A stretch of DNA of 8,531 nucleotides from Nitrospinota bacterium (GTDB lineage: Bacteria; Tectomicrobia; Entotheonellia; J063): NCBI GenBank assembly GCA_003696125.1, contig RFHZ01000458.1, forward strand, positions 1 through 8,531, in the 5' to 3' direction. The notes below the pieces were generated by a model. It saw nothing but the letters and a program-made list of their open reading frames with translations, did not search any database and was not told the DNA's origin. The position numbers and the translations under genes are program-made. Positions 7,008 through 8,531 of the stretch are shown in pieces (the stretch's first letter is position 1; each line of letters starts with the position of its first letter).

Positions 7008-7036
7008 TTGACAGTGGCCGCGAACTTCGCTAGATT
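7008..7036 (+). promoter_or_regulatory. Promoter of the fluoride operon
   Basis: A perfect TTGACA -35 (7008-7013), a 17-nt spacer, and TAGATT (7031-7036, four of six). The transcript would start near 7043, just before the riboswitch aptamer, which is where it should be. Confidence 0.75.
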
Positions 7037-7046
7037 ATAAGCGAGA

Positions 7047-7107
7047 TAAAGGTGATGGGGTTCACCTGAAATTACTGGGACGAGTACCAGTTGATGACCA
7101 CTATGTG
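7047..7107 (+). promoter_or_regulatory. Fluoride riboswitch (crcB RNA motif)
   Basis: The aptamer core GGTGATGGGGTTCACC (7051-7066) fits the conserved GGNGAUGG-GUUCNCC part of the fluoride motif. It is followed by GAAA, a stem ACTGG/CCAGT (7074-7078 with 7087-7091), and the conserved TGATGACCACTA (7092-7103), matching the UGAUGRCxxCUA 3' part. It directly precedes crcB, the usual target. The 3' aptamer strand is shared with the following terminator hairpin. Known switches of this type turn expression on when fluoride binds, because the aptamer then blocks the terminator. Confidence 0.93.
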
Positions 7108-7135
7108 AGGAGAACCTCAGATAGGGGTTTTTTTT
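7098..7135 (+). terminator. Intrinsic terminator, riboswitch expression platform
   Basis: CCACTATGTGAGG (7098-7110) pairs with CCTCAGATAGGGG (7115-7127) around an AGAA loop, giving about eleven pairs with two mismatches, followed by eight T residues (7128-7135). The 5' arm overlaps the conserved 3' strand of the fluoride aptamer, so ligand-bound aptamer and terminator are mutually exclusive. This predicts an ON switch acting by transcription attenuation. Confidence 0.9.
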
Positions 7136-7215
7136 GTCTATATCCCTAACGGAGGCACGACTACGAATCGAAAACAGATGCGGGAAAGCCTGAAGGGAGG
7201 AACAGAGGGATTCGG

Positions 7216-7599
7216 ATGATCGCACTCTCACAGCTTGTGGCAGTGATGGTGGGTGGGGCGGCTGGCAGTGTGCTTCGATTTCTGGTAGGATTATGGGCAG
7301 GCAAACAGTGGGGAGTAGAGTTCCCGTACGGCACCATGCTGATCAATGTCAGCGGCTGTTTTGTCCTCGGTTTTGTCGGTACCCTGGTCGGAGAGAAAGG
7401 CGCCTTCGGCCCGCATCTCCGTCTGCTGTTGACCGTGGGCTTTGCCGGGGGGTATACGACCTTCAGCACCTTTGGCTTTGAGACCTTTGCCCTGTTAGAG
7501 CGGGGGAACATGGCCTTGGCAGGACTCAACATTGCTGGTAATATGTTTTATGGCCTGATTGCCGTCTATCTGGGCATGATATTGGCCCGATTGCTTTAA
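7216..7599 (+). CDS. crcB: Fluoride ion channel CrcB/Fluc
   Basis: A 127-residue inner-membrane protein that exports toxic fluoride as a dual-topology dimer. Four hydrophobic segments are visible (about 3-26, 38-58, 68-94, 100-125). Family signatures are GGAAGSVLRF (13-22), GTMLINVSG (39-47) with the pore asparagine N44, and GFAGGYTTFSTFGFE (75-89) carrying the fluoride-coordinating Phe-box residues F83 and F86 and the Gly/Thr residues of the central sodium site. The length is typical. The ATG has AGAGGG about 7 nt upstream. It is 80 nt after the riboswitch terminator and is the first gene of the fluoride-controlled operon. A single gene is present, so a homodimer is expected rather than a two-gene heterodimer. 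Confidence 0.97.
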   Translation: MIALSQLVAVMVGGAAGSVLRFLVGLWAGKQWGVEFPYGTMLINVSGCFVLGFVGTLVGEKGAFGPHLRLLLTVGFAGGYTTFSTFGFETFALLERGNMALAGLNIAGNMFYGLIAVYLGMILARLL

Positions 7600-7615
7600 G
7601 GAGAGGGGGCAGGGC

Positions 7616-8467
7616 GTGCCTGCAGGAGAACGGTACTCGCAACTCACCATCTACATCGGTGAGTCGGATCGGTGGGAAGGAAAGAACCTGGCCACCGCCA
7701 TCGTCGAGTTTCTACACAAGGAGCGATTGGCCGGAGCCACGGTGGTACGGGGCATGATGGGCTTTGGAGCGCATTCGCTCGTGCATACCACTGGTATCCT
7801 TACCCTCTCTTCAGACCTGCCGGTCGTCATCACCGTGATCGATCGCCCGGAACGGATCAGTGCCGTCTTGCCCCGCCTGGAACAGATGGTGCAGGAGGGG
7901 TTGATTGTCCGCCAGGAGGTCCAGGTGATCAAATATGCGGCCAGATCCACCCCTTCCAGGCCTCCTCAGGCTTCGCTGACCCTGCCGCCAACCCTCGCTC
8001 CGAGCACCCCGGTGCGCCTGATCATGACTCCCAATCCGGTTACGGTACGGCCGGAGACATCGGTCGGAGAACTGGTCAGCCTCTTTGCCACCCATCACTT
8101 CCGGAGCCTGCCGGTGGTAGACGAAGAACAGCGGGTACTGGGGCTGGTGCTGGAGGAGGATCTGGTGATGAAGCTCCAGGACCTGACCCTCGACCGGGTA
8201 CGGCGTCTCGTGGTAAAACTCCCGCTCCTCCATCATCTGCTGGGAGATCTGCGGGAGCGGATGGAGAAGGCGAAGGCACAGACCGCTGGAGAACTGATGG
8301 TCTTAAATCCGGTGACGGTAGAGGAGGAGACGCCGATCGCCGATGTCATGGGGTACCTGGTAGAGCCGAAAGTGAAACGGGTACTGGTGGTGCGCCAGGG
8401 AAAGCTGGTAGGGGTAGTGAGCCGTATCGACCTGCTGCGGCGAGTGGTGCAGCAGAGTAACGAGTAA
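7616..8467 (+). CDS. DUF190 (PII-like) protein fused to two CBS domains
   Basis: A 283-residue cytoplasmic protein with a GTG start, 16 nt after crcB; AAGGAGAGGGGG overlaps the crcB stop. Residues about 6-108 are a DUF190 domain (LTIYIGESDRW, LAGATVVRGMMGFGAHS, DLPVVITVIDRPE), which has a PII-like ferredoxin fold. A Pro-rich linker (about 111-132) leads to CBS domain 1 (about 133-188; MTPNPVTV, FRSLPVVDEEQRVLGLV), a helical spacer (190-222), and CBS domain 2 (about 223-278; MVLNPVTV, KRVLVVRQGKLVGVVSRIDLL). CBS pairs commonly bind adenine nucleotides. Free-standing DUF190 genes often neighbour crcB; the CBS fusion is less usual. Inferred role: an energy-state or nucleotide sensor for the channel. 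The last codons and stop lie in a tandem repeat. Confidence 0.9.
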   Translation: MPAGERYSQLTIYIGESDRWEGKNLATAIVEFLHKERLAGATVVRGMMGFGAHSLVHTTGILTLSSDLPVVITVIDRPERISAVLPRLEQMVQEGLIVRQEVQVIKYAARSTPSRPPQASLTLPPTLAPSTPVRLIMTPNPVTVRPETSVGELVSLFATHHFRSLPVVDEEQRVLGLVLEEDLVMKLQDLTLDRVRRLVVKLPLLHHLLGDLRERMEKAKAQTAGELMVLNPVTVEEETPIADVMGYLVEPKVKRVLVVRQGKLVGVVSRIDLLRRVVQQSNE

Positions 8468-8524
8468 TGAGTAACGAGTAACGAGTAATGAGTAATGAGG
8501 ACTGAGTGATGAGGACTGAGTAGG
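8455..8524 (+). repeat. Tandem array of a 7-bp unit (GAGTAAY), about ten copies
   Basis: Ten consecutive 7-nt units: GAGTAAC or GAGTAAT for the first six, then GAGGACT, GAGTGAT, GAGGACT and GAGTAGG, so the array decays toward the right. It starts inside codon 280 of the DUF190-CBS gene, encodes its final Ser-Asn-Glu and provides its TAA stop. The plus strand is rich in stops in all frames; the minus strand of the clean units is open. The array appears to end just before the window edge. Confidence 0.93.
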
Positions 8525-8531
8525 GGCGCAG

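Follow-up and report, generated by a model that had tools for sequence, protein, structure and literature searches.

The window (the whole 8,531-nucleotide stretch of DNA analysed here) encodes a soluble, cytosolic protein that joins a DUF190 domain to a pair of CBS domains. We regard it as a strong candidate for the so far missing protein that opens or closes the fluoride channel CrcB (Fluc), since its relatives are all but confined to microbes possessing CrcB. The gene is laid out for co-regulation with crcB, its adjacency to crcB is conserved, and DUF190 co-occurs with the channel across genomes; judging from this association, the protein very probably works with CrcB. DUF190 has the status "uncharacterized" in Pfam, and in the open-access literature we found no report linking it to CrcB or to fluoride. 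A 2024 review states that no natural regulation of Fluc at the protein level has been identified (PMC11139923). This gap would suit a PII-like protein that carries energy-sensing domains and is produced along with the channel.

All features of the operon lie on the forward strand. A sigma-70-like promoter (TTGACA-17-TAGATT; positions 7008-7036), proposed from its consensus match alone (10 of 12 positions), precedes a fluoride riboswitch aptamer (RF01734, the crcB motif; 7042-7110) that, at 34.1 bits, only just clears the gathering score of 34 and reaches E 7e-8 when re-scored locally (401 bp searched, aligned). The minimum-free-energy fold of 7040-7140 (-35.5 kcal/mol; z -4.0) contains a terminator (7096-7135) made of a hairpin at 7096-7129 and a run of eight T at 7128-7135. 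The terminator stem makes use of the aptamer's 3' strand, and the aptamer helices form in the fold once the terminator half is removed. As read from the sequence, this overlap is the arrangement typical of transcriptional ON switches, and it matches the description of crcB-motif RNAs as elements in which the ligand prevents termination (PMC2864571). We accept the riboswitch despite its borderline Rfam score because position, promoter, terminator and downstream crcB all agree, and the same elements bear out the "fluoride-controlled" operon of the original prediction.

The first gene behind the switch is crcB itself (7216-7599, 127 aa; PF02537, E 2e-27), whose product scores 101.6 bits with TIGR00494 against a cut-off of 80.45. 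The DUF190-CBS gene (7616-8467, 283 aa, GTG start) follows after 16 bp, with a likely Shine-Dalgarno sequence, GGAGAGGGGG, at 7600-7609. Its DUF190 domain (residues 9-104; 7640-7927) passes the curated PF02641 cut-off of 23.4 with 128.5 bits (E 1.2e-37) and carries the aligned family motifs YxGESD, GATVxRG and GFG..S.IH..LSxDLP. A Pro-rich linker at about residues 108-130 (AARSTPSRPPQASLTLPPTLAPSTP; 7937-8005), where the structural model has its lowest pLDDT, leads to CBS domain 1 (residues 136-187; 8021-8176) and CBS domain 2 (residues about 224-276; 8285-8443), PF00571 matching the protein twice (E 1.5e-25). The architecture first proposed, DUF190 plus two CBS domains joined through a Pro-rich linker, is confirmed.

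The AF2 model of this protein, a monomer prediction, has a pLDDT of 85 and a pTM of 0.57, and the relative placement of its domains is unreliable. Its DUF190 part matches TM0021 (1o51), described as a "putative PII-like signaling protein", with Z 14.8 and an rmsd of 1.1 over 89 residues, and PH1503 (2dcl) with Z 15.3. Together with matches of Pfam P-II to 24 of 69 DUF190 proteins (E 0.1 or better; best 1.2e-6), one fusion even exceeding the P-II cut-off, these similarities support the claimed PII-like domain, which by the model would adopt a PII-like ferredoxin fold. Pfam P-II did not match the window protein itself, and a profile-based comparison against nine canonical PII proteins gave DUF190 no significant match (probability 2.9). 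CBS chains fill the VIA-align match list, so that canonical PII structures did not appear in it. Where PII proteins carry their T-loop, residues 49-69 (GFGAHSLVHTTGILTLSSDLP; 7760-7822) rank with the best-conserved stretches of the family (mean identity 0.79 vs 0.60 for residues 70-103) and have low pLDDT in part; conservation combined with low confidence fits the expectation for a docking loop, short of proving one.

The modelled CBS pair matches AMP/ADP/ATP-bound AcuB and AMP-bound CBSX2 at Z of about 16-17, and as these matches span 119-137 residues, the two CBS domains are predicted to fold as a pair. Across the fusions, the [TS]xxD ribose-binding motif is present in CBS1 of 29/30 and in CBS2 of 26/30. 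The window protein keeps it in CBS2 (S269/D272), whereas its CBS1 has lost the T/S (L179) and retains D182. Nucleotide sensing by this pair is plausible, given the intact CBS2 motif and the AMP, ADP or ATP held by many of the nearest solved structures.

The tie to the channel was examined in a main census of about 290 genomes taken from across the domain. CrcB was present in 119 genomes and DUF190 in 63, and all 63 DUF190 genomes carried CrcB (Fisher p 7e-31; the genome sets span more than 200 families, and p-values here ignore phylogeny and hence overstate independence). DUF190 genes lay within 3 kb of crcB in 64 of 77 cases, 56 of these 64 being directly downstream on the same strand. The channel works without DUF190, which about half of the CrcB genomes lack. 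Among 52 genomes with a fluoride riboswitch over the cut-off, DUF190 occurred in 15 of the 18 with CrcB and in none of the 34 without (p 2e-10, again ignoring phylogeny); the latter presumably use CLC-F. DUF190 thus tracks the Fluc channel and not the general fluoride response, and the adjacency and co-occurrence expected of a CrcB regulator are both seen across genomes, which strongly supports the proposed tie of the protein to the fluoride channel. As stand-alone DUF190 shows an equal link to crcB, the CBS pair is not required for it. In-frame CrcB-DUF190 fusions were sought in all fetched loci, and none was found. On the CrcB tree, which is poorly resolved, DUF190-linked labels cluster but need at least 27 changes.

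Several loci depart from the simple gene pair. DUF190 sits between two crcB genes at L069 (genome G248), L115, L120 and L131, as expected if it also serves heterodimeric Fluc channels. Another genome, G130, packs three DUF190 genes into about 30 kb together with several fluoride riboswitch matches (L077), and elsewhere carries a split crcB beside a fourth DUF190. Tandem DUF190 genes, either a two-domain plus a one-domain gene or four domains, occur in Acidobacteria and others (L116, L119, L145, L132 and, in G101, L076), mostly beside crcB; these are perhaps built-in hetero-oligomers.

Fluoride riboswitches also precede eight other fusion operons (L062/L094, L081, L082, L083, L085, L087, L090 and L100; nine with the window), including that of Anaerolinea thermolimosa (L081), and in L087 no other gene stands between the riboswitch and the fusion. 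The order in L100 is riboswitch, MFS, AAA ATPase, crcB, DUF190-CBS4, phosphatase and enolase, the last being a known fluoride target. In L082 the riboswitch is followed by two MutS-domain genes, crcB and DUF190-CBS4; MutS is already known as a crcB-motif gene (PMC2864571). The MFS transporter found between riboswitch and crcB in Desulfovibrionales-type operons (L062, 2600-3925; L100, 847-2070) is a possible additional fluoride-linked transporter.

The presence of enolase (L100) and MutS-like genes (L082) in fusion operons lends some weight to a soluble fluoride-stress regulator that would never touch the channel, would sense adenylates or a fluoride-metal-nucleotide complex, and would tune fluoride-sensitive enzymes such as enolase or pyrophosphatase, its link to crcB meaning no more than that cells exposed to fluoride need both. 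The 34 riboswitch genomes without CrcB presumably face equal stress, yet none has DUF190, and we consider such a regulator unlikely. A still smaller share of our confidence goes to a DUF190 that aids CrcB assembly, dual-topology insertion or stability without sensing, with the CBS pair as an add-on. The tight gene order in 56 of 64 adjacent cases would suit this role, as would a main census in which no DUF190 genome is missing CrcB; however, the PII-like fold, the conserved flexible loop and the nucleotide-type CBS domains suggest sensing, and many CrcB proteins manage without DUF190.

The distribution of the fusions themselves bears on a further alternative. A scan of named genomes returned 24 DUF190-CBS fusions, all 24 with four CBS domains and 22 with crcB adjoining, from Chloroflexota (Anaerolineales, Thermoflexales, Caldilineaceae and Ardenticatena), delta-proteobacteria including Desulfovibrionales, and Candidatus Tectomicrobia; the fusion is a recurring architecture. 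The class of genome G064, probably Chloroflexota as judged from the tree position of its fusions, behaves differently: among its fusions (frames of at least 380 aa), crcB adjoins 25 of 83, and CrcB was not detected in 7 of its 70 DUF190 genomes. A tree of 70 fusions divides them into a clade of 53 that comprises 42 crcB-adjacent fusions, the window protein and 10 remote fusions, and a clade B of 17 with branch support 100 and no crcB-adjacent member (0/17). These two clades explain the low adjacency in the G064 class, clade B consisting of paralogues, probably chloroflexotal, that have left crcB. The window protein sits on a long branch (1.08), and its position within the crcB-linked clade is unsure. 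Counted as the original prediction had proposed, DUF190-CBS architectures thus adjoin crcB in 22/24 cases in named genomes and 43/53 in the window's clade; homologues mostly away from crcB, which that prediction had named as telling against it, characterise the Chloroflexota paralogues and not the clade of the window.

Clade B fusions (L064, L067, L242 and L244-L257), all 17 away from crcB, often lie near an NAD-dependent epimerase, and Pelobacter DUF190 genes cluster with a predicted acetoin channel for which transport modulation was suggested (PMC3543383); the fusion could accordingly be a general adenylate-responsive adaptor whose partner varies by lineage, the crcB link being one of several uses, but the window protein is a crcB-adjacent member of the crcB-linked clade, and all DUF190 genomes of the main census have CrcB, making this reading as improbable as the assembly role.

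The window protein is the sole intact short (two-CBS) fusion among those found. Position 8531 is the end of the contig, and a dispersed tandem repeat of the heptanucleotide GAGTAAC/GAGTAAT (8455-8522, repeat search) supplies the gene's final codons and its stop; as the gene end sits in such a 7-bp repeat at a contig end, loss of a second CBS pair is possible. A frameshift-broken four-CBS gene was rejected as an explanation, no CBS being found after the stop, though the contig ends in the repeat; the only other short candidate, G310 (282 aa), proved to be a four-CBS gene interrupted by a frameshift. Derivation of the window pair from CBS3-4 was also rejected, 26/30 comparisons favouring CBS1-2, although the linker between its CBS domains is in part similar to CBS3-4 linkers. 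Degenerate forms of the array (GAGTAAC/GAGTAAT/GAGTGAT) occur at many places of the window's genome (G000), several of them at contig ends, and a 19-mer of it has 261 near-matches genome-wide, compared with 157 for a reversed-pattern control that is itself raised by the repeat.

The explanation we prefer, at roughly even confidence, is that the protein is an adenylate-sensing cytosolic partner that gates CrcB. DUF190 would dock on the channel via its conserved flexible loop, in the manner of GlnK on AmtB; whether the protein blocks or frees the pore would be decided by adenylates occupying the DUF190 and CBS domains. The riboswitch would thus set the amount of channel and regulator, and the protein the activity of the channel. 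Fluc is passive and driven by the membrane potential, and it could let fluoride in if the potential were lost (PMC11139923); the most sensible job for such a partner would therefore be to close Fluc in a de-energised cell, when fluoride would flow in. Adenylates as the gating signal are a point on which we are slightly less confident still, and docking, ligand binding, gating and its direction are what we infer around the observed genomic tie. Weighing against gating are the absence of in-frame CrcB-DUF190 fusions from all fetched loci, the CrcB genomes (about half) that do without DUF190, the mismatch between usually trimeric PII proteins and the antiparallel Fluc dimer, the 58 of 83 fusions away from crcB and the 7 of 70 DUF190 genomes with no detected CrcB in one Chloroflexota class, and the window CBS1 without its T/S. 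The two-input regulator of the fluoride channel originally envisaged therefore stands as regards its genomic link to the channel, whereas its docking, ligands and gating keep the conditional form given here.

A broader version of this gating model, which we advance more tentatively, is that DUF190 proteins are a natural protein-level Fluc gate across bacteria and archaea, with the CBS fusions as a two-sensor version. If so, a drop in adenylate state or membrane potential would lead DUF190 to shut off passive leakage of fluoride. The pattern of DUF190 in about half of the CrcB genomes and in none of the riboswitch genomes without CrcB would offer one testable answer both to the role of DUF190 and to the regulation of Fluc. 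The larger result is the DUF190-CrcB pairing, of which the CBS fusion is a variant.

Set against the closest known systems, the window protein shares with the DUF190 (COG1993, UPF0166) proteins TM0021 and PH1503 its family (1.2e-37), fold (Z 14.8-15.3) and a usual place beside crcB; these are stand-alone domains, to which it adds the Pro-rich linker and CBS pair. The DUF190-CBS4 fusions of Anaerolineae, other Chloroflexota and Desulfovibrionales have an equal domain order, a crcB neighbour and often a fluoride riboswitch, but four CBS domains where the window protein has two. The CBS-pair fold is common to AcuB (with AMP/ADP, Z about 16-17), CBSX2, MgtE, CLC and CNNM; in CLC and MgtE the pair lies within the transporter, whereas here it is carried by a separate soluble protein. 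PII and PII-like proteins regulate membrane transporters in GlnK-AmtB and SbtB-SbtA, and the window protein, as known from sequence and model, resembles these regulators in its PII-like fold, flexible loop and operon partner in the membrane. There, trimer docks on trimer; as PII proteins are usually trimers and Fluc is an antiparallel dimer, the symmetric dock of GlnK on AmtB does not carry over. Modulation of transport by DUF190 in the manner of GlnK was suggested earlier for other channels in Pelobacter (PMC3543383).
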